Assembly: GCA_030692055.1 (NCBI GenBank)
Contig: JAUYCY010000179.1
Span: forward strand, 1 to 16,415
Source of the DNA: Candidatus Omnitrophota bacterium
Lineage (GTDB): Bacteria > Omnitrophota > Koll11 > Duberdicusellales > 4484-171
Length of the DNA stretch: 16,415 bases
Direction of reading: 5' to 3'
Positions 2,638 to 13,968 of the stretch are shown here, in pieces (position 1 is the first letter of the stretch; each line of letters starts with the position of its first letter). The position numbers were made by a program, and so were the translations under genes. Below the pieces are notes generated by a model. That model saw nothing but the letters and a program-made list of their open reading frames with translations. It had not been told where the DNA came from and ran no database searches.

Positions 2638-4011
2638 TTATAGCCCTAAGAGATATTCTTCTATTTCCTTTGATGATTTTTTCTCTAAGATAGCCCACAT
2701 ACCTTTATTTTCCATACATAGATACACTGGAGTTTTCTGGTCATATTTACGTATCCACTGTACCATATTTTTATAAATTTCTCTTTTTAAAAATACAGGA
2801 TACCTTAATTTTTTATCGTCGCCCAAGAATAATTCGCCATAAAAAATGTTACTTTGAGGAAAACGCAGTTCTGTAATAGTCTTTAACTTGCGATGTGAAC
2901 GTAAGGTCCCTAAACTTATCCAGCAAAAATGAGGTTTTATTTCTCTATATAATCTATCTACGACTTCTTTGTATAAAGTTTTCCAGTTGTCAGAATAAAT
3001 GATAGGGTCAAAATGAAAAGCTATGCCGTAGCCTTTTTCTTGGACTTTTTTTGCCGCATTTATTCTTTCATCTAAAGAGGCTGTTGCTAGTTCTTCTTTT
3101 GTAATGATTGATTGGGGGTTTAAAGACCAAGAAACAACGATATTAGACGAGGAAGGTATTTTCAATATATTGTCTACTTTGTTACTTTTAGTTTTTAACT
3201 CAAAAAAAACATTTTTGTCCTTAAAGTAAGTAATGAGCCTGTCGGAATATCCGGTTATTTGGTCAAGCGCAAGCGAATCGCAAAATTCACCGGTGCCTAT
3301 TCTTATCGGTTTTTTCAGTTTTTTATATAATGCGTCGAATTCTTCAAAAAAATCATCCAAATTCGCAGGTAAAAGTATTCCTGGAAAGTTACTATAGCAT
3401 TGTAAAAAACAATACGAGCAATCAAAAGGGCAGCCAAACCCCAAATTTAATATCCAATAGCCGCAACCCAGATGGCCTTTAGTGCAGGGGCAAGGCTTTA
3501 AAAAGTCCCATTTTTCTTTTACTATAAACACTATAGATTTTTTTAAAATAGAAAGCGTAAATTTATTTTCTCTCAGGTAATCGCTGTAGCGATTTATTTC
3601 TTCAATGTCTACATCAGGAAAACATTTACGAAAGTTGGCTACCAAATAACTATCTTTGACCTCTTGTTCCACAAAGATCTTTAACGGTTTGAAATATTTT
3701 TTGACCCCGTGGTTATCTGCAAGCGGTTCTCGTACTTGATTTAAAAATACATTTTTTGTATCTATTTTTTCTTTTGAGTTCGTGAGAGGAAAACGCCGTT
3801 TGATAAGGATGTTTTTGATGGCAAAAAATTTATTTCTTCCGCCGTATTTTTCAATACTCGAATTATTTTTTAAATGCGCGATGATTTCTTCGGGAGTGGT
3901 ATTTTCCCTGCGTATTATCTCAAAAACGAGACGTTCGATATCACGGAATTGGTTTCTATTAGGCCGAAAAGAAAAAGTATTTTCAATTTGTTTTTTAAGG
4001 TCTTCGCACAT
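2638..4011 (-). CDS. SPL-family radical SAM protein
   Basis: This 457-residue protein carries the radical SAM cluster motif GCPFDCSYC, with cysteines 194, 198 and 201 binding a 4Fe-4S cluster that cleaves S-adenosylmethionine. It is preceded by CPCTKGHLGCGYWIL and followed by GTGEFCDSLALD (239-250) and an ISLGTLR motif, the pattern of spore photoproduct lyase-like (SplB, COG1533) proteins. True SPL repairs the thymine dimer spore photoproduct. In non-sporulating lineages this family is common and its substrate is not known, so I would not call it a DNA repair enzyme. Residues 1-75 form a charged helical N-terminal extension that may bind nucleic acid (inference). The ATG at 4011 has no Shine-Dalgarno and lies 13 bases from the hairpin cluster at 4025. 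Confidence 0.82.
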   Translation of the reverse strand: MCEDLKKQIENTFSFRPNRNQFRDIERLVFEIIRRENTTPEEIIAHLKNNSSIEKYGGRNKFFAIKNILIKRRFPLTNSKEKIDTKNVFLNQVREPLADNHGVKKYFKPLKIFVEQEVKDSYLVANFRKCFPDVDIEEINRYSDYLRENKFTLSILKKSIVFIVKEKWDFLKPCPCTKGHLGCGYWILNLGFGCPFDCSYCFLQCYSNFPGILLPANLDDFFEEFDALYKKLKKPIRIGTGEFCDSLALDQITGYSDRLITYFKDKNVFFELKTKSNKVDNILKIPSSSNIVVSWSLNPQSIITKEELATASLDERINAAKKVQEKGYGIAFHFDPIIYSDNWKTLYKEVVDRLYREIKPHFCWISLGTLRSHRKLKTITELRFPQSNIFYGELFLGDDKKLRYPVFLKREIYKNMVQWIRKYDQKTPVYLCMENKGMWAILEKKSSKEIEEYLLGL

Positions 4012-4024
4012 ATTTAGCTTTTAT

Positions 4025-4168
4025 CCCGTTAGAGAAAACCACCGATTTTAATCGGTGGTGTACCGATTCTCAAGCTGACAGTGGTATTAAACCACCGTCA
4101 GCGCAAACCGCTCGCCCCGTTAGAAAAGAATTTTCTAACGGGGTAAAAGGACGAAGTTCTCTAACGGG
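4025..4168. repeat. Cloverleaf-like repeat: outer stem with three hairpins
   Basis: Outer arms CCCGTTAGAGAA (4025-4036) and TTCTCTAACGGG (4157-4168) are perfectly complementary over 12 bp. They enclose three hairpins: ACCACCGATT/AATCGGTGGT (4038-4059), GCTGAC.GTGGT/ACCAC.GTCAGC (4074-4102) and CCCCGTTAGAAAA/TTTTCTAACGGGG (4115-4143). The same CCCGTTAGAGAA arm pair recurs at 12218-12248. The right arm overlaps the end of the glycosyltransferase gene and supplies its TAG stop. The function is unknown. Confidence 0.8.
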
Positions 4169-5000
4169 ATTTATTGAATTTTACCATTAATTTTTGATAG
4201 TGTTGAATTTCTTTAACTTTTCCCCGTTTTAGCGCTCCCTTAATGAATATTTCACATTTAATTTTTAGTTCATTGAGAGCTATTTTATGATTTTTTTTGT
4301 TTAACTCGCCGCTTTCAAGTATTTTTTGCAGCGCATAAATACGTAGCGTATCCATTGCCGGAAATTTTATTGATTGTTGGTCGGGATGGCCACCTTCTTT
4401 TATGGTTAAATATTGCGGGATGAGAAATACCGGCTGTCTGTGGGTCAGCCTTAGCCAAAAATCATAATCTTCGCAAGCAGGCATAGTTTCATCGAATAAA
4501 CCTATTTCGTTAAAAATATCACGTTTAATCGCCGCCGTAGAAATACTAATAGAGCATAGTTTCGCCGCACTTTCAAAGACAAAGCCAGTTGGCTTTTTAT
4601 GATATATTTTTTGGGGTAAAAGCTGGCCGCGGCGATACCATATTTCTTCGGTATGAAATATTTTATATTCAGGGTATTTTTTTATGTATTGATATGTTAT
4701 TTCTAGCTTATTATGCCGAAAACGGTCATCAGAATCTAAAAAACAAATGAATTCACCCTTGGCTTTGGCGATTCCTTTATTCCTTGCGCTTGATACGCCT
4801 TGATGTCTTTGATAGAGATATTTAGCTTTTTTATCACCTAGATCGTCAAATAATTTCTTTGTGTTGTCTTTCGAACCGTCATCGACGACAATCAATTCAT
4901 AATCGTCAGAGCTTTGTTCTAATACAGACCGTATAGCGATTTTTAAAAATTTTTCGCGGTTATAGGTAGGGATAATAATGCTAAAAAAAGGTTTACTCAT
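4161..5000 (-). CDS. Family 2 glycosyltransferase
   Basis: This 279-residue protein is a GT-A fold, family 2 glycosyltransferase that moves a sugar from a nucleotide-sugar donor to an unknown acceptor, most likely in cell-surface polysaccharide or lipid glycan synthesis. The N-terminus FSIIIPTYNR (6-15) and IVVDDGS (37-43) form the nucleotide-binding part. FLDSDD (87-92) holds the metal-binding DxD. CEDYDFWLRL (176-185) provides the expected ED acceptor-side motif. The protein is soluble, with no predicted membrane segment. The ATG at 5000 has no clear Shine-Dalgarno. Its last two codons and stop lie inside the repeat arm at 4157-4168, so the C-terminus has been set by that element. It sits between two SPL-like radical SAM genes, with no evident functional link. 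Confidence 0.9.
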   Translation of the reverse strand: MSKPFFSIIIPTYNREKFLKIAIRSVLEQSSDDYELIVVDDGSKDNTKKLFDDLGDKKAKYLYQRHQGVSSARNKGIAKAKGEFICFLDSDDRFRHNKLEITYQYIKKYPEYKIFHTEEIWYRRGQLLPQKIYHKKPTGFVFESAAKLCSISISTAAIKRDIFNEIGLFDETMPACEDYDFWLRLTHRQPVFLIPQYLTIKEGGHPDQQSIKFPAMDTLRIYALQKILESGELNKKNHKIALNELKIKCEIFIKGALKRGKVKEIQHYQKLMVKFNKSR

Positions 5001-5038
5001 TTTTCGATTACGTTATCTTTATTCTCTCTCGGCGAATA

Positions 5039-5058
5039 CCCCGTGGCTTGCCACGGGG
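5039..5058. repeat. CTTG-loop hairpin
   Basis: CCCCGTGG pairs with CCACGGGG around the loop CTTG. It has the same length and loop as the hairpins in the 36-base repeats at 141 and 5132, but its stem bases are changed in pairs, as in a maintained hairpin. It lies upstream of the minus-strand glycosyltransferase. Confidence 0.65.
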
Positions 5059-5131
5059 ATAAAGCCGAAATCGTAAACGTAGTTGACCTCATTCCATGGC
5101 AATGAATGAACCGGTGATAATATTAGTATAG

Positions 5132-5167
5132 AACATACTCCGCGGCTTGCCGCGGAGACTGGTTGAT
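5132..5167. repeat. 36-base dispersed repeat, copy 2 (CTTG-loop hairpin)
   Basis: This copy is identical to 141-176 over 36 bases, with unrelated sequence beyond. The hairpin CTCCGCGG-CTTG-CCGCGGAG is at its centre. It lies in the divergent gap between the glycosyltransferase and the small membrane protein gene. Confidence 0.8.
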
Positions 5168-5236
5168 TACAGCGCGATAGTTAAATGCTTTATTCTATTG
5201 ATATTATCAACTAAACGGTGCTGTAACAAGTTTTTT

Positions 5237-5264
5237 TTGACAAGCGAAAGCGAACATGTATACT
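5237..5264 (+). promoter_or_regulatory. Sigma-70-type promoter for small membrane protein
   Basis: The -35 box TTGACA (5237-5242) and -10 box TATACT (5259-5264) are separated by 16 bases. Transcription would start near 5271, about 40 bases before the ATG at 5310. The leader contains AGGAGG at 5298-5302. Confidence 0.7.
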
Positions 5265-5309
5265 AATATTATATGCACGAGTTCAATCTACAAAAAAGGA
5301 GGCATTAAT

Positions 5310-5747
5310 ATGGCCTACAACAGATTTTCACTAAAGTCTTTATCGGGCGATGCAGATAGTACTGATAGCGGAGTTTTTATAATGGCCAGCATAGGTATAG
5401 CGCTCGTTATTTTTAATATTGTTTATTATTTATTCATCCAATTTAATGTAGTTGGCATTGTGATGAATTGTTTTTTTGCATGGATGTATTTTAATTTAGC
5501 ACAAAATAAAAAATGGGCAAGAGTTTTGTCCGTGATATTTCACAGCTTAATTGCTAGCGTTTTGGTGCTTGTATGTGGAGCCATGTTTATTGTCGCAGGT
5601 AACAAAGCGATAGAGGATATAGGGCGGTGCATAGAAGTTTCTGCACCCACTATTTTTTCAAAAATATTTCTTACGGTTTGGTTATTTTATATCTTTGGAT
5701 TACTTTTTTATCTTCTTAGTCCTAAACCCAAGCTTCAATTAAAATGA
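5310..5747 (+). CDS. Small four-helix membrane protein, unknown function
   Basis: I chose the ATG at 5310 because a strong AGGAGG lies eight bases upstream. An in-frame ATG at 5256 lies inside the promoter region. The resulting 145-residue protein has four predicted membrane helices (about 21-43, 46-63, 72-96 and 115-136). The N-terminus is short and polar (SLSGDADSTDSG) and the C-terminus is basic (SPKPKLQLK). A NKKWAR loop (66-71) resembles the cytosolic loop of small DoxX- or DUF-type membrane proteins, but I do not recognise the family. It has its own promoter and is followed by a small CCGAC/GTCGG hairpin and palindromic repeats, so it is probably monocistronic. Confidence 0.75.
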   Translation: MAYNRFSLKSLSGDADSTDSGVFIMASIGIALVIFNIVYYLFIQFNVVGIVMNCFFAWMYFNLAQNKKWARVLSVIFHSLIASVLVLVCGAMFIVAGNKAIEDIGRCIEVSAPTIFSKIFLTVWLFYIFGLLFYLLSPKPKLQLK

Positions 5748-5779
5748 AGCTTTGCCCCGACAAGTCGGAGTGGATTTAT

Positions 5780-5816
5780 AGTTCTTTCCCAAGTTTATGG
5801 CAAAGGGAAAGAACTT
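5780..5816. repeat. 37-base palindromic element, copy B (inverted)
   Basis: AGTTCTTTCCC (5780-5790) pairs with GGGAAAGAACT (5805-5815). It is the reverse complement of 2577-2613 with one added G in the loop. It lies 32 bases after the stop of the membrane protein gene and may terminate it. Confidence 0.75.
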
Positions 5817-5817
5817 G

Positions 5818-5908
5818 ATTACACCGATTTTAAAAAGATTACACAGATTTCGATAGATTTTATACGTATTCTTAATCAGTGTAATCTGCATCTAATCTGT
5901 GTAATCAG
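5818..5908. repeat. Imperfect palindrome, TTACACAGATT/AATCTGTGTAA type
   Basis: GATTACACCG and GATTACACAGATT on the left pair with AATCAGTGTAATC and AATCTGTGTAATC on the right. It is a member of the CACAGAT palindrome group. The remainder of the gap (5909-6046) shows no gene. It has an AAGCTTTCT/AGAAAGCTT inverted pair (about 5909 and 6003) and a twice-repeated ACTAAATCTA word. Confidence 0.7.
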
Positions 5909-6046
5909 AAGCTTTCTTGCAATCAAGAGGTCAAAAATAAGAATTTTACAGAGAAGGCACTAAATCTAAATTAGTTATGAAATATTTGTGCAACAAAGTC
6001 GAGAAAGCTTCGGATTTATCGCGTCCACTAAATCTAGAATTATCGG

Positions 6047-6961
6047 TTAACAGGATTTTTCATAGTCGATGCTTGAACTATAAAAATAGTTAAAGTCAGG
6101 CGTAATATAAAAAAACTTGATATTATTGTTATTTTTTATTTTTTCAATTTCTTCCCTCAGGCTACTAGCAAATCGTAGATAATTTTTTTCATTTAAATAG
6201 ACATCCGCTAATTTATTTTTTAAGTCCTTGCCAAAACCCTCATCTACGCGCTTTAAAATCTTTTTGAAATTGCCCATTGTCTGATGATATAGCTCAACAT
6301 CAATTTCTTTTATACCTCTGGGTAGCATTGCCATGATATCTTTAAGCGAGGATAGGTAGGGAATAAATGGCCCTATATGTATTCGTAGGTTTATGTTGTG
6401 CGTAATAATTTGACTGATTGTTCTTATTCTTTCCTCAAGCGACGGTGATTTTTTTTCAAACATTCTGATTATTGCATCCGATGTACAATTGAACGTAAAA
6501 TATATTTTATTTCCTTTATTTTGCGCAATAAGTGGCAGATATTGGGCAATGATATGTGATTTGGTAAGTATAGTGTAGGCAATATTATAATTATTGAGTA
6601 TTTTTAAAATTTTTTCCATAAGTCGGTATTTTAATTCAGCATATTGAAAACACTCAGTAGTTGAGCCTAAAAGAACCCTTTTGGGGTTTTTGTAATGTAA
6701 CTCTCTTTCCAATACTTGTGGAGCATTAATTTTTATTCCTAATACATTAGGAAAATTACCGTTTTTTTCCGCCAGAATTGCCCACCTATCTGACACACAG
6801 CTATCAGCCTTTGGCTGAAGATTTTTATTTTCCAACGAATAACAATAGAGGCAGCTGATTTCGCATCCGCGATAAGGATTTATTACGTAATCCGCAATAC
6901 TTATCTGGGTGGGAGAGAGGACTTTTTGAGTGTTAATAAGTTTAATTTCCATTTTTTTCAT
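6047..6961 (-). CDS. Radical SAM protein, SplB-like (COG1533)
   Basis: This 304-residue protein has the motif NPYRGCEISCLYCY, with cysteines 33, 37 and 40 for the 4Fe-4S cluster. The preceding ADYVINPYRGC is typical of the SplB-like COG1533 group. ERELH (86-90), LLGSTTECFQ (97-106) and ILTKS (about 132-136) follow, matching the barrel strands of that group. The substrate is unknown. It is not closely similar to the other SPL-like protein at 2638-4011, which has an extra N-terminal part, so the two are probably not recent duplicates. It starts at ATG 6961, or possibly at the fourth codon (ATG 6952). Neither has a Shine-Dalgarno, and the palindrome at 6963-7051 ends two bases before the ATG. 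It is co-directional with the 7053-8306 gene, 91 bases apart. Confidence 0.82.
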   Translation of the reverse strand: MKKMEIKLINTQKVLSPTQISIADYVINPYRGCEISCLYCYSLENKNLQPKADSCVSDRWAILAEKNGNFPNVLGIKINAPQVLERELHYKNPKRVLLGSTTECFQYAELKYRLMEKILKILNNYNIAYTILTKSHIIAQYLPLIAQNKGNKIYFTFNCTSDAIIRMFEKKSPSLEERIRTISQIITHNINLRIHIGPFIPYLSSLKDIMAMLPRGIKEIDVELYHQTMGNFKKILKRVDEGFGKDLKNKLADVYLNEKNYLRFASSLREEIEKIKNNNNIKFFYITPDFNYFYSSSIDYEKSC

Positions 6962-6962
6962 G

Positions 6963-7051
6963 CACGAATAGTTACGAATTCGCTTCGCTCACACAAATAT
7001 TCACGAATAAAAAATTTGTGTGTATTCGTGTGTAATTCGTGAATATTCGTG
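6963..7051. repeat. Imperfect palindrome, CACGAATA/TATTCGTG type
   Basis: CACGAATAGTTACGAATT, ACACAAATATTCACGAAT and related words on the left pair with ATTCGTGTGTAATTCGTGAATATTCGTG on the right. The layout is the same as the CACAGAT palindromes but with a different core word. It fills the whole gap between two minus-strand radical SAM genes and would be transcribed as the 5' leader of the 6047-6961 gene. Confidence 0.75.
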
Positions 7052-7052
7052 T

Positions 7053-8306
7053 TTAATAAATAAGGTTATTTATAAAGCTTTTAGTATACTTTATTTTTTC
7101 TCTTTCTATATTTTTCAGAAAAAAGTTGGTTCGTTCCATTGCTATTTTAGTTGGGAATGTCTCGTTAGAGAAGCCATTCATATAATCAACAAAGGGGTTC
7201 GCTTGAGCGATTTTGGGTATTATCTTTTTATTTTTTGTAATGAAATTAAGAGTTTTTTTAAAATCTACTTCGGTTTCGCCGGGATAACCGAAAATAAGGC
7301 TTATTTCAAATTGTAAACCCGCCTTATTTAGTTTTTCAAAAAAACCTAAGGCAATTTCCTGGGTAAAGCCTTTTTGCATCGATTGCAATACTTCATCCGA
7401 AGCGCTTTCTAAGCCAACAAATAAATTATAGCAACCGCTTGTTTTCATTCGCATGCCTAGCTCAACAGTAAAATTAGGGTCAATGCGCATTTGTGCTTCC
7501 CATTTTATGTTAAGATTATTGGTAATAGTTAAAGAACAAAATTTCTCTAACCATTCATTGTTGTAATTTATCAATGAATCGCAGAAGACTAAACTGTTAG
7601 TTTTATATTTTTTCATCAAAAACTTTATTTGCTCAATCATATATTGAGGGGAATGATACTTGAATTTTTTATAGAGCTTTTTCTCAGAGCAGAATTTACA
7701 GTTATGCATGCACCCACGTGAAGAAAATAAAGGAATATATTGTGAATAAAGTTTTAAATTCAAAGGCTCAAAGTTCAAAAAAGGTAATTTGTCTAGATTT
7801 TCAATTTCGTCAAAGCGATGCACCATACTTTTATCACCATTTAGGATTTTATAAAGAGGAATTTCTCCTTCACCAATTACCCAATGATAGTTATGATCGA
7901 GTTTGTCTTGCCAGCCTAGAAAAAGCGTTTGCGGACCGCCAAAAACTATCTTTTTATGGGGGTACTTTTTTCTTATTTCTTCTGCTAAAGCGAGAGAGAA
8001 AGGAGCATTGCGTTTTGATATTGACAAACCAATTAGCTCATAGTTTTCTATTTCTCTATATAATTTTTCTAAGAGATAGTTAAATTTCTTTTCAAGCGCT
8101 TTGAACAGATTTTTTTCAAAATCTTGATTCAAAGCAAGCCATTCCTTTGTAGATAAATTAGATAACTTAAAAAATTCAATATTTAAATCCCTGATTTTTA
8201 CCCTGCAGCATTTACTCTTTAGGTAATTCTTTAAGTATACCAAAGAAAGCGGCGGTGTCTTTAGCCAAGAAGGCGCACCTTGAATTATATAGACACTTTT
8301 TTCCAT
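7053..8306 (-). CDS. B12-binding-type radical SAM protein
   Basis: This 417-residue protein has a Rossmann-like N-terminal domain (1-150) of the cobalamin-binding radical SAM class: PPLSLVYLKNYLK, LIGLSIS and IVFGGPQ, then VIGEGE (143-148). The radical SAM motif SRGCMHNCKFC has cysteines 199, 203 and 206. The barrel includes CDSLINYN, FVGLESAS and IFGYPGET. The usual DxHxxG cobalamin-coordinating motif is not visible, so it may bind cobalamin without it or not at all. Family members carry out methylations and ring rearrangements; the substrate here is unknown. At 417 residues it is somewhat short at the C-terminus for the class. It starts at ATG 8306 without a Shine-Dalgarno. TATAAT-like bases just upstream on the minus strand could be a -10 box. 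Confidence 0.85.
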   Translation of the reverse strand: MEKSVYIIQGAPSWLKTPPLSLVYLKNYLKSKCCRVKIRDLNIEFFKLSNLSTKEWLALNQDFEKNLFKALEKKFNYLLEKLYREIENYELIGLSISKRNAPFSLALAEEIRKKYPHKKIVFGGPQTLFLGWQDKLDHNYHWVIGEGEIPLYKILNGDKSMVHRFDEIENLDKLPFLNFEPLNLKLYSQYIPLFSSRGCMHNCKFCSEKKLYKKFKYHSPQYMIEQIKFLMKKYKTNSLVFCDSLINYNNEWLEKFCSLTITNNLNIKWEAQMRIDPNFTVELGMRMKTSGCYNLFVGLESASDEVLQSMQKGFTQEIALGFFEKLNKAGLQFEISLIFGYPGETEVDFKKTLNFITKNKKIIPKIAQANPFVDYMNGFSNETFPTKIAMERTNFFLKNIEREKIKYTKSFINNLIY

Positions 8307-8320
8307 TACTATATAATTAT

Positions 8321-8455
8321 AACACAGATTAGCACAGATTTGTCCGTCACCTAACTATTTTTATATAGGCGGATCCGCCTCGGGCGGAAAAGCGGATGAG
8401 CACAGATGAATTATCTGTGACTATCTGAGGTCTTTATCCGTGGCTATCTGTGTAA
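8321..8455. repeat. CACAGAT palindrome with GGCGGATCCGCC core
   Basis: AACACAGATTAGCACAGAT (8321-8339) pairs with repeated ATCTGTG words ending near 8455. A 14-base perfect palindrome AGGCGGATCCGCCT sits at 8367-8380. It fills the divergent gap between the 7053-8306 gene and hemW and runs to within a few bases of the hemW ATG. Confidence 0.75.
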
Positions 8456-8459
8456 AGAG

Positions 8460-9581
8460 ATGAATTCGTTATATATCCATATTCCTTTTTGCCGCAAGAA
8501 GTGTCTATACTGCGATTTCTATAGCACACGTTATTACTATGGTTTTGCTCGTAGCTATATCGATATTTTGTGCCAACAGATAAAGAGATTAGACGGAGAT
8601 TTTCATACCATATATATAGGAGGAGGGACGCCTACGGTGTTAGAGGTGCGGTTGTTACGCAAACTTCTTAAGAGTCTATATAAAATCGCTCGTAAAACAG
8701 TAGAATTTAGCGTTGAAGCCAATCCAGAAAGTCTAGATAAGCAGAAGCTTAAGCTATTGCTTAGTGAAGGCGTAAACCGTATAAGTATCGGTGTTCAGTC
8801 TTTATACGATCAGAAATTACGTAAACTCGGGCGTATCCACTCGGCAAAAGAAGCACTTCGTGCGGTATGCCTTGCGAAAGAAGAAGGCTTTAAAAATATA
8901 GGCATAGACCTTATCTTTGGGCTGTGGCAAGAAACGCTAAGTAGTTGGAAAGAAGAATTAAGCCTAGCTGTTAAATTGCCCGTCAACCATATCTCAGCTT
9001 ATTCATTAACTTATGAAAAAAACACTCCGCTTTTTGATAAATTGAACACGAAAAAGATTATATCACTGGCTGATACGATAACCTCCAAAATGTATAAGTA
9101 TTGCATGAATTATCTGCCCAAGCGCGGATTTATGCAATATGAAGTGTCAAATTTTGCAAAAAATGGTTTTTCTTGTAAGCACAATTTAAATTATTGGGAG
9201 AATAACCCCTATATTGGTTTAGGCCCTTCGGCTGTTTCGTATCGCGATGGTATCAGAAATAGAAATTTAGTTAATATCGAGAAATATATTGAGAAAATAG
9301 AAATTGGAAAAAGCCCTATAGTTTTTCAAGAAAAGCTTTCACCTGAAAAATACGCAAAAGAAACCGCCGTCTTGAAAATTCGGACAAAAAAAGGAATAAA
9401 TTTCCATTGGTTTAGCGAAAAGACAGGTTTTGACTTTAGAGATTTTGAAAAAAGCGCCATTAAGAATCTTATTACTCAAAGGCTTATTAGATATGCCAGA
9501 GCCAGAGGCAAGATAGTCGGTATTTGCCTCACTAAAAAAGGGTTCCTTTTTTGTGATTCTGTGTGTGCAGAGTTAGTGTAA
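8460..9581 (+). CDS. hemW: Radical SAM heme chaperone HemW
   Basis: This 373-residue protein opens with YIHIPFCRKKCLYCDFYS, holding the CxxxCxxCxF motif (C11, C15, C18) that separates HemW from true coproporphyrinogen oxidase HemN. GGGTP follows at 54-58, then IGVQS and HNLNYWENNPYIGLGPSAVS. HemW binds heme and a 4Fe-4S cluster and is thought to deliver heme to respiratory enzymes. It does not carry out the oxidative decarboxylation. The family is often annotated as an oxygen-independent coproporphyrinogen III oxidase, which I think is wrong here. The length is normal for the family. The ATG has only AAAGAG upstream, immediately after the palindrome. A weak CCCA/TGGG hairpin with a T-rich tail near 9600-9618 may end the transcript. 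Confidence 0.92.
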   Translation: MNSLYIHIPFCRKKCLYCDFYSTRYYYGFARSYIDILCQQIKRLDGDFHTIYIGGGTPTVLEVRLLRKLLKSLYKIARKTVEFSVEANPESLDKQKLKLLLSEGVNRISIGVQSLYDQKLRKLGRIHSAKEALRAVCLAKEEGFKNIGIDLIFGLWQETLSSWKEELSLAVKLPVNHISAYSLTYEKNTPLFDKLNTKKIISLADTITSKMYKYCMNYLPKRGFMQYEVSNFAKNGFSCKHNLNYWENNPYIGLGPSAVSYRDGIRNRNLVNIEKYIEKIEIGKSPIVFQEKLSPEKYAKETAVLKIRTKKGINFHWFSEKTGFDFRDFEKSAIKNLITQRLIRYARARGKIVGICLTKKGFLFCDSVCAELV

Positions 9582-12804: not shown

Positions 12805-12878
12805 AGGCGAGTAGCTCAATTGGCTAGAGCATCGGTCTCCAAAACCGGGGGTTGCAGGTTCAATTCCTGCCTCGCCTG
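12805..12878 (+). tRNA. tRNA-Trp (anticodon CCA)
   Basis: This 74-base tRNA has acceptor AGGCGAG paired with CTCGCCT and discriminator G. The D arm is GCTCAATTGGCTAGAGC. The anticodon arm is TCGGT-CTCCAAA-ACCGG with anticodon CCA. The T arm is GCAGG-TTCAATT-CCTGC. CCA is not encoded. tRNA-Trp directly before secE-nusG is the usual bacterial order. The last 18 bases of the tRNA recur twice just downstream. Confidence 0.96.
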
Positions 12879-13145
12879 CGTAATGGTTGTTTGAAGGGGT
12901 ATTGGCATATTTAGACGTAGGATTTGCTGTGGAAGGAGATATTGGATGCACTAATAATCCTTTGGATTAACTCCGACATTAGTCGGAGAGTGCATACAAT
13001 TCCTGCCTCGCCTGCTTGAAGGTTATTTGATAAATGAGTGTAGTAAGGTAAGGTTGATTTTGCTTGTGAGCGAAATTGGAACAAATAAAAGCCTTCGGCG
13101 CTCAGACATACGTCTGAGATTTGTTGCAATTCCTGCCTCGCCTGC
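12861..13145 (+). repeat. Three copies of tRNA-Trp 3' end with two structured inserts
   Basis: CAATTCCTGCCTCGCCTGC occurs at 12861-12879 (end of the tRNA), 12997-13015 and 13127-13145. The inserts are 12880-12996 (117 bases) and 13016-13126 (111 bases). They are related: each begins with a GGTTRTTTGA word and has GAWATTGGA before the fold. Insert 1 ends with ATGCACT/AGTGCAT (12946-12952, 12989-12995) enclosing TAATCC/GGATTA and CTCCGAC-ATTA-GTCGGAG. Insert 2 ends with AACAAAT/ATTTGTT (13080-13086, 13119-13125) enclosing GCC/GGC and CTCAGAC-ATAC-GTCTGAG. No ORF is supportable on either strand. Confidence 0.9.
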
Positions 13146-13151
13146 GTGAAA

Positions 13152-13240
13152 AACACAGATAATCACAGATGAAGACCGCAGATGGTCATGGATAAATATC
13201 TGTGTTTATCTGTGGTGTGTATCTGTGTTAATCTGTGTAA
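13152..13240. repeat. CACAGAT palindrome before secE
   Basis: AACACAGATAATCACAGAT on the left pairs with ATCTGTG words on the right, with GACCGCAGATGGTC at the centre-left. It ends seven bases before the secE ATG, leaving no room for a normal Shine-Dalgarno. Confidence 0.8.
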
Positions 13241-13246
13241 TAAAAA

Positions 13247-13444
13247 ATGATAAATAAACTAAAAAAAATTCCGAAATTTTTCTCAGAAGTTAAAGAGGAA
13301 TTAAAAAAGGTAAATTGGTCAACGAAACAGGAGCTTAGGGGGGCCGTTATTGTCGTTGTGGTGGTGTTAGCGTTTTTGACGCTTTATGTCGCAACGATAG
13401 ACTTAGGCCTTTCAAAAGTTATGCATTCTCTTTTACGCGGATGA
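13247..13444 (+). CDS. secE: Preprotein translocase subunit SecE
   Basis: This 65-residue protein is the short, single-helix SecE that clamps SecY in the inner-membrane translocon. The amphipathic N-terminal part has the family pattern FFSEVKEELKKVNWSTKQEL (13-32), followed by one membrane helix (about 34-53, VIVVVVVLAFLTLYVATIDL) and a short tail. The length is normal for bacteria outside the enterics. The start ATG at 13247 has no Shine-Dalgarno. The stop overlaps the nusG start (ATGA), so the two are probably translationally coupled. Confidence 0.95.
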   Translation: MINKLKKIPKFFSEVKEELKKVNWSTKQELRGAVIVVVVVLAFLTLYVATIDLGLSKVMHSLLRG

Positions 13445-13968
13445 AAAATTGGTATATTTTACATACTTTAAGTGGCGCAGAGGAAAAAGCTAAAGCAAAC
13501 CTAGAAGCAAGAATAAAGGCTCATGCGTTGCAAGATAAAATAGACAGCGTTATTATTCCTAAGGAGCAGATTACCGAAGTAAAATTAGGAAAAAAGAGAA
13601 TTTTAGATAGAAAGTTTTTCCCTGGGTATATCTTAGTATATATGGAGATGAACGATGATACTTGGCTTTTCGTTAAAAATACCCCGGGCATAACCACATT
13701 TATCGGACCAAGGAGAAAACCTTCACCTATACTTCAGGAAGAGGTGGATAAAATTTTAAAAAAGGCTGAAGAGAGTAAAGAAAAACCTGCGCCGAAAGTA
13801 AGCTTTGAAAAAGGCGAAGGCGTGAGAGTCATCGAAGGTGCGTTCATCAACTTTACTGGAGTAATAGAAGAAGTCCAGCACGACAAAGGCAAATTAAAAG
13901 TCAACGTTTCTATCTTTGGCAGAACTACTCCGGTGGAGCTGGAGTTTTGGCAAGTCGAGAAAATATGA
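13441..13968 (+). CDS. nusG: Transcription termination/antitermination factor NusG
   Basis: This 175-residue NusG binds the RNA polymerase clamp and links it to ribosomal protein S10 or Rho. The NGN domain (1-100) begins WYILHTLSGAEEKA and has FFPGYILVYM (59-68) and TPGITTFIG (81-89). A lysine-rich linker (104-118) leads to the KOW domain (121-175) with GVRVIEGAFINFTGVIEEV. It has no large insert. The ATG overlaps the secE stop by four bases. The next gene, rplK, is 108 bases away, with the gap filled by a palindrome. Confidence 0.97.
   Translation: MKNWYILHTLSGAEEKAKANLEARIKAHALQDKIDSVIIPKEQITEVKLGKKRILDRKFFPGYILVYMEMNDDTWLFVKNTPGITTFIGPRRKPSPILQEEVDKILKKAEESKEKPAPKVSFEKGEGVRVIEGAFINFTGVIEEVQHDKGKLKVNVSIFGRTTPVELEFWQVEKI

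Follow-up and report, generated by a model that had tools for sequence, protein, structure and literature searches.

Two inserts behind a tRNA-Trp gene of an Omnitrophota bacterium, probable members of a gene-free mobile DNA family with a target-matched hairpin foot

In the DNA of a Candidatus Omnitrophota bacterium (contig JAUYCY010000179.1; "the window" denotes the whole stretch of 16,415 nucleotides that was analysed) the tRNA-Trp gene is followed by two inserts of 117 and 111 bases lying between copies of the tRNA 3′ end, and these inserts are, at slightly better than even odds (roughly 0.55), two copies of a family of mobile, gene-free DNA elements that enter their targets at TT|C and whose right-end hairpin stands on a foot matched to the target. 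A family element measures about 115-130 bases, of which ~60 nt form the left domain and ~55 nt the hairpin at the right end; that such elements move at all is suggested by the comparison of sequences, the source of all the evidence presented here.

The repeated tRNA end CAATTCCTGCCTCGCCTGC has exact matches at three places in the window (Table 1), and allowing up to three mismatches returns the same three matches only, the number expected from shuffled sequences being 0.01. The preliminary description had attributed these copies and the inserts between them to the serial insertion of gene-free elements of ~130 bases, each restoring the tRNA end, and had proposed to look for copies at other tRNAs and for genomes with zero, one or more units at this locus. 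The searches and comparisons described below found both, in support of serial insertion; the target-matched foot, the 4-bp extension of the stem, the elements at gene starts and the varying position of the second boundary had no place in that reading. At the gathering score Rfam recognizes two tRNAs only in the window, with no match to the RtT RNA (RF00391). The closest NusG relatives, at most 83% identical, are from Omnitrophota; the ORF downstream of the last tRNA copy, just before nusG, is one that we take, from its sequence and position, to be secE, and several ORFs at 2638-9581 presumably encode proteins resembling radical-SAM proteins. The space between the last tRNA copy and secE is occupied by a degenerate inverted and direct repeat made up of CACAGAT/ATCTGTG units (window 13148-13237).

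Table 1. Features of the tRNA-Trp locus and of the two inserts (positions in the window)
Feature	Position	Strand	Evidence
tRNA-Trp (cca), target gene	12805-12879	+	ARAGORN, Rfam; exact repeat
Left copy of first duplication (tRNA-Trp 3′ part)	12861-12879	+	exact repeat
Unit 1 left domain, 61 nt	12880-12940	+	between tRNA end and hairpin foot
Unit 1 5′ foot ATTG, complement of target CAAT	12941-12944	+	DNA fold; foot rule
Unit 1 hairpin core	12945-12996	+	DNA fold; R3 55.4 bits (unit in R3 training set)
tRNA-Trp 3′ end, copy 2	12997-13015	+	exact repeat
Unit 2 left domain, 59 nt	13016-13074	+	between copy 2 and hairpin foot
Unit 2 5′ foot ATTG, complement of target CAAT	13075-13078	+	DNA fold
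Unit 2 hairpin core	13079-13126	+	DNA fold; R3 53.6 bits (unit in R3 training set)
tRNA-Trp 3′ end, copy 3	13127-13145	+	exact repeat; taken as original target end
secE-like ORF, 65 aa, downstream	13247-13444	+	ORF list
nusG	13441-13968	+	ORF list; NusG relatives

Folded as DNA, the hairpins at the ends of both inserts adopt a common structure made up, in this order, of a 4-bp foot, a 1×1 mismatch, a stem of 7 bp, a small side hairpin and a further hairpin of 7 bp closed by a loop of four bases; none of 200 shuffled sequences was as stable as either of them (z = -8.9 for unit 1 and -5.6 for unit 2). Folding of the entire units as RNA gave less remarkable values (z = -3.2, with 1/200 shuffles as stable, and z = -1.5, with 18/200). 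In the core of unit 1 a G is followed by the 7-bp stem ATGCACT/AGTGCAT, the small hairpin and the 7-bp hairpin CTCCGAC/GTCGGAG, an A standing opposite the G, and in that of unit 2 a G, here with another G opposite, is followed by AACAAAT/ATTTGTT, the small hairpin and CTCAGAC/GTCTGAG. The outer stems pair perfectly in both units in spite of their different sequences, as had been noticed at the outset, and extend by 4 bp into the tRNA copy, the ATTG of the 5′ foot pairing with CAAT, the first four bases of the copy.

The common architecture and the maintenance of the fold, which the preliminary description had also claimed, hold for the family. Indeed, in an alignment of 74 distinct rows, whose fitting to the structure favors the structure in the pairing figures, 98.3% of 1306 cells are paired and double changes occur in 17 of the 18 pairs (326 double-change cells), values reached by none of 500 shuffles, while pairing drops to 32-42% when the structure is slid along the same alignment. 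G-U pairs (G-T in DNA) account for 8 of the 1284 standard pairs in the hairpins (0.6%), compared with 58/930 (6.2%) in the T-stems of 187 distinct tRNAs taken from all collected loci, carriers and others; in the acceptor stems the count, obtained with crude indexing, was 85/1185. Since G-T pairs are ten times rarer than are G-U pairs in tRNA T-stems, the hairpin evolves in the manner of DNA; its two arms vary jointly, and states in which only one side has changed, or in which a G-T pair stands, are very scarce. Such a shortage of wobble pairs in an inverted repeat suggests that it is the DNA that is constrained or templated.

The stem sequence varies, and covariance models were therefore required to delineate the family, a sequence pattern used as finder having been abandoned after matching in only 3/20 and 3/293 genomes. 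Model R1, made from three units and built on paired feet, gave 85 matches at E ≤ 0.1 in 24 of the 37 genomes of one taxonomic family of Omnitrophota. The matches in G282 and G009 (E = 0.08 and 0.06), with no tRNA nearby and apparently coding, were dropped and G004 was added, which brings the carriers to 23 of the 37 genomes; the aligned set comprises 86 hits, the two of the window included. A tRNA lies upstream on the same strand within 420 nt of 61 of these 86 hits; the hairpin foot is found 58-71 nt past the tRNA end in 51 of the 61, and in 40 of the 61 the end of that very tRNA is repeated behind the hairpin (≤2 mismatches of 18), the targets being of 15 isotypes (Trp, Leu, Pro, Lys, Val, Ser, Arg, Asp, Thr, Gly, Phe, Tyr, Glu, Ala and Met). 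Reading of the sequence identified the target of L087 as the 3′ end of tmRNA, for which ARAGORN made no call, and placed the hits of L149 and L151 antisense at apparent start codons with ribosome-binding sites; furthermore, a hit on the minus strand of L127 is antisense at the 5′ end of tRNA-Leu.

At the tRNA-Trp locus the number of units ranges from none to several among genomes. Within loci L001-L045 tRNA-Trp was called in 44, L011, the sequence of which starts inside a unit, having no such call; a script allowing 3 mismatches of 18 found the tRNA end repeated downstream in only L010 and L027 of the 44, and reading added one unit with an interrupted right copy (L014) and a truncated unit (L012). 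One clean unit is present at the tRNA-Trp of L085 (genome G287), and L010 holds an array with three visible hairpins, one cut by a run of N, plus a further left domain. The preliminary description had allowed for copies produced by an assembly error; in spite of the run of N in L010, such an error is unlikely to be the source of the family, since the latter occurs also in two genomes with records labelled chromosome, CP070807.1 (L003 of G003) and CP070684.1 (L007 of G007).

As far as the searches reached, the elements appear confined to this one family of Omnitrophota, with the addition of one copy in G094 that may belong to a misplaced contig. With stricter filters, model R2 matched in only two of 109 genomes of the class, namely G010 and, with one copy at a contig end, G094, and model R3 (see below) matched in the 42 genomes of the order only in members of the 37-genome family. 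The G094 copy (L192, G094:C3) begins at the contig end and its right copy resembles a tRNA-Val end; since G094 is not among the 42 genomes of the order, either the element also occurs beyond the order or the contig has been misplaced. In viral contigs the stem pattern had no match, while two matches to GCCTAATACATTNTYGGA, both inside long ORFs and with no R3 match up to E = 0.1, were rejected as chance. No gene-bearing copy of the element was seen among the inspected hits, and no description of such elements was met in a literature search covering titles and abstract openings among the matches listed, with few subscription journals.

The insertion point is TT|C, corresponding in a tRNA to T55|C56 of the T-loop. 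After removal of 3 partial or weak hits, 83 of the 86 were examined for duplication; 5 had no room for a left copy, and in 48 of the remaining 78 such a copy (≤3 mismatches of 18) was found at 72-93 nt, the right copies of the other 30 being decayed or interrupted, or the hits being weak or at contig edges. The left copy is preceded by TT in 44/48 cases, the other four, with TG or TA, being second units of tandem arrays. The direct repeat begins at the C and runs for 18 to about 30 bases: in the 41 simple loci that were profiled after 7 tandem-like ones had been set aside, positions 1-18 match in 95-100%, position 19 in 76%, positions 20-25 in 46-66% and those beyond 25 mostly in 20-40%, with scattered higher values. 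Exact runs of at least 18 bases occur in 37 of the 41 loci, one run measuring 37, and the other four are reduced to 5-10 by inner mismatches. One boundary is therefore fixed and the far one is variable; since 18 bases are exactly the distance from C56 to the discriminator base, the lower limit may mirror survival of the tRNA rather than the mechanism.

Some loci depart from this picture. The flanking duplication of L144 (G296:C67), the hairpin core of which is 98% identical to that of L156 from another genome, is 66 bases long, yet the total from TT|C to the foot is the usual ~80 nt; the idea, prompted by this locus, that left domains originate in the sequence flanking the target was rejected as a general rule because the left domains are alike, by eye and among the loci listed, at different tRNAs. 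The left domain of unit 2, for instance, has words in common with that of L128 at tRNA-Arg (by eye). In L111, L112, L117:897, L165, L166 and L014 the right tRNA copy is broken after about 5-9 bases by another small palindrome, frequently GCCTGCC...GGCAGGC, after which the copy resumes. In L036:963-1117 the 3′ half of a tRNA-Tyr is repeated in tandem behind the gene over 70 bases, which resembles a plain tandem duplication.

The match between foot and target follows a simple rule. Among the hits used for the test (78 of 86, 76 of them distinct) the foot and the left tetramer are exact reverse complements in 64/76, whereas 10,000 permutations gave 8.5 such cases on average and 21 at most. Four further feet match only the right tetramer, no proper left site having been found (L112, L131, L117:1353 and L158), and eight match neither (L092, L102, L136, L141, L154, L156, L160 and L162). 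Because the training of R1 included paired feet, a core-only model without the foot, R3, was made from 30 of the 31 listed cores (L121 being left out); it matched at E ≤ 0.01 in 21 of the same 37 genomes and, after two partial matches had been dropped, gave 76 distinct hits, most of them in loci first found by R1. The foot is fully paired in 59 of these, with an extent of exactly four bases in 45 and of five in 14, so that the fifth base pairs at about the level of chance. In the loci found by R3 only, which represent a cleaner test, the foot pairs in 9/11. Finally, six hits with a clear left site have unlike tetramers on the two sides and a foot that fits one of them; the fit is to the left one in all six (L097, L119, L143, L155, L157 and L161) and to the right one in none. 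A one-sided fit of this kind is the trace to be expected if the match was set when the element inserted and the right copy, being useless, decayed later.

The same match would also be expected if the foot were a copy instead of a guide, that is if the inserting strand folded back on its hairpin and copied four target bases by snap-back synthesis, each insertion writing its own foot. This is the most serious competitor of the guide, even though we hold it to be unlikely. It would account for the fact that 53 of the 67 pairs of cores at least 80% alike are found at different target tetramers, with both feet matching their own target in 33/53, for the occurrence within the GAACAAA subgroup of seven of the eight possible NTYG feet (by reading) and for the joint changes of the hairpin arms. 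Mutation and selection of guides could, however, also yield rapid switching, and an extent of exactly four bases is what one would expect of a binding site more than of a copying process. Guide and copy both explain the match, the fixed length favoring the former and the switching between similar cores the latter.

As to the enzyme, none that tracks the elements emerged among the six protein families (Y1, reverse transcriptase, Cas1, serine recombinase, IS110 and phage integrase) searched in the 37 genomes, which are mostly drafts, so that single absences mean little and the pattern over the carriers means more. Target-primed reverse transcription would fit one fixed and one variable boundary, yet reverse transcriptase (RVT_1) was found in 4/37 genomes, of which one of the 23 carriers (G263) and 3/14 others, and this candidate was discarded. 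The IS110/IS1111 DEDD transposase exceeds the cut-off in 5/37 genomes (2/23 carriers, G263 and G308, and 3/14 others) and serine recombinase is present in 13/37 (7/23 carriers and 6/14 others). Casposons target tRNA 3′ ends and produce target duplications; they fit the tRNA end, yet they too were set aside, Cas1 being found in 3/37 genomes, 0/23 carriers and 3/14 others. Phage integrase (PF00589) is the sole family of the six with matches in all 37 genomes, carriers and non-carriers alike; exactly two phage-integrase matches, the number expected for XerC plus XerD, which these proteins presumably are, are present in 15/23 carriers, genomes with 10, 8 and 7 matches being among them. One phage-integrase match (L103, G011:C21:8431-8895) lies just upstream of a tRNA-Pro with two tandem hairpin units.

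These counts leave mobilization by a tyrosine recombinase, favored by the preliminary description, unsupported, although an integrase that came from elsewhere and has since disappeared may have acted. More generally, it is improbable that the elements are att-site elements, that is small circles carrying their own tRNA 3′ end and integrated at the T-loop by a tyrosine or serine integrase acting in trans. A duplication from T-loop to 3′ end is a common footprint of tRNA integration, and the direct repeat of the tRNA 3′ part found here has that form. Moreover, the ssrA islands of Dehalococcoides, as far as the available part of the source describes them, enter the T-loop of tmRNA with a 20-bp repeat, several islands standing in series (PMC3146451), and in T-loop insertion, flanking repeat and serial units they resemble the present family; unlike the latter, they are large, carry a serine recombinase module and have one target gene. 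Against such elements stand not only the two integrase matches of most carriers and the presence of serine recombinase in only 7/23, but also the 15 isotypes and the gene starts entered by one family, which would require as many attP cores, and the fact that no gene-bearing member was seen among the inspected hits.

A similar arrangement is that of the RtT repeats of E. coli tyrT (RF00391), which also form a tandem series behind the tRNA gene; every unit terminates in a repeat of the tRNA 3′ end, and a 5′ arm pairs with this repeat. Three such units stand behind tRNA-Tyr in the E. coli record (L251), and to our knowledge RtT occurs only at tRNA-Tyr. By reading, the E. coli arm is GGGGAAGGAT pairing with ATCCTTCCCC, and in Salinisphaera (L072) a different arm fits, with one wobble, the different end of its own tRNA-Tyr; these arms (L072:2642-2773 and L251:1472-1960) are largely antisense copies of part of the T-arm of their own tRNA-Tyr (86% over 22 nt in E. 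coli). RtT differs from the present elements in its spacing of 178-179 bases, in a copy that starts from A58 and not from C56 (by reading), in an arm of about 10 bp and not 4, and in being described as an RNA. The RF00391 model matched L072 (52.5 bits) as the only one of 6 loci, none of the carrier loci L090, L101, L104 and L117, and 1 of 32 loci in another search, while R3 had no match in L251 and L072 up to E = 1. A different unit of 150 bases, with a repeat that starts from C56, is present at the tRNA-Trp of a distant NusG relative (L027:404-590); its possible 7-bp foot GGAGTCG/CGACTCC belongs to the centroid and is absent from the best fold, itself no better than shuffles. The RtT parallels are drawn from two examples and the L027 parallel from one.

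If the elements were, like RtT, functional RNAs selected in the tRNA transcript, the DNA repeats would be by-products, a view for which the preliminary description had left room and which is now very improbable. The fold is conserved and located in tRNA transcripts, and the annotation of E. coli describes rtT as an sRNA that arises by processing of the tyrT transcript, its tandem units being spaced by 178 and 179 bases. The near absence of G-U pairs (8/1284) and the foot that fits the left tetramer and never the right one where these differ, indicating that the pairing with the right copy is not kept, weaken an RNA role, as do the patchy presence among the 37 genomes and the hits lying antisense at apparent gene starts. 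Finally, that the elements are REP-like palindromes moved by the Y1 (HUH) transposases common in these genomes is hardly credible, for although the foot tetranucleotide and the hairpin resemble REP and IS200/IS605 ends (PMC8266576) and the Y1 family occurs in 30/37 genomes, it is found in 17/23 carriers versus 13/14 non-carriers (drafts can miss a gene by chance) and was not found in carriers G270 (7 matches), G001, G302, G303, G004 and the single-contig G007, the conserved GTAG of REP was not seen here, and target duplication is not among the REP features described in the available part of that source.

Compared with integron attC cassettes, in which a folded imperfect hairpin ends each unit of a tandem array, the present units carry no gene and have a long target duplication, and they differ from casposons in that Cas1 is absent from all 23 carriers. 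A functional analogy is offered by IS200/IS605 and REP/TnpA-REP, where, in the parts of the sources available to us, a tetranucleotide 5′ of a hairpin picks the cleavage site by base complementarity (PMC8266576) and IS608 was retargeted by changing this tetranucleotide (PMC8266576; PMC5934647). Here too a foot tetranucleotide 5′ of the hairpin is complementary to the target; unlike in those systems, all four bases form Watson-Crick pairs, the insertion point lies on the 5′ side of the tetramer, the duplication covers 18 bases or more and the Y1 genes do not track the elements.

In the reading that we prefer, that of a mobile DNA with a target-matched foot, the active form of the element would be a DNA strand that has folded up and holds the target by pairing through its foot, in the manner of the guide of IS200/IS605 ends. 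This pairing would bring the 3′ end of the hairpin next to the 5′ end that a cut at TT|C produces in the target strand, so that the two could be joined, and the free T55 end would be extended by 18 or more bases before joining the left end of the element, an extension that would generate the duplication and save the tRNA, or the start codon and its ribosome site; the enzyme would be supplied in trans. Both this enzyme and the order of the steps we infer, and strand extension is proposed only to fit the duplication, since IS200/IS605 transposition, as far as we know, makes no such target duplication.

More tentatively, these elements might represent a new minimal class of transposable DNA whose foot reads or rewrites four target bases and which could enter any gene with a suitably placed TT|C, leaving tRNAs, tmRNA and start sites working; the RtT repeats of E. 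coli, with their long foot, would be a relative within this class that has been overlooked. We consider this possible though short of probable. If this is true, these would be among the smallest mobile elements known to us, and the sequence of each would hold a four-base record of the choice, or of the copying, of its target. They would also join IS200/IS605 as a second example of DNA insertion guided by base pairing, one in which the cut is different and the duplication repairs the target, and the old puzzle of the tandem tRNA-Tyr end repeats behind E. coli tyrT would become testable.
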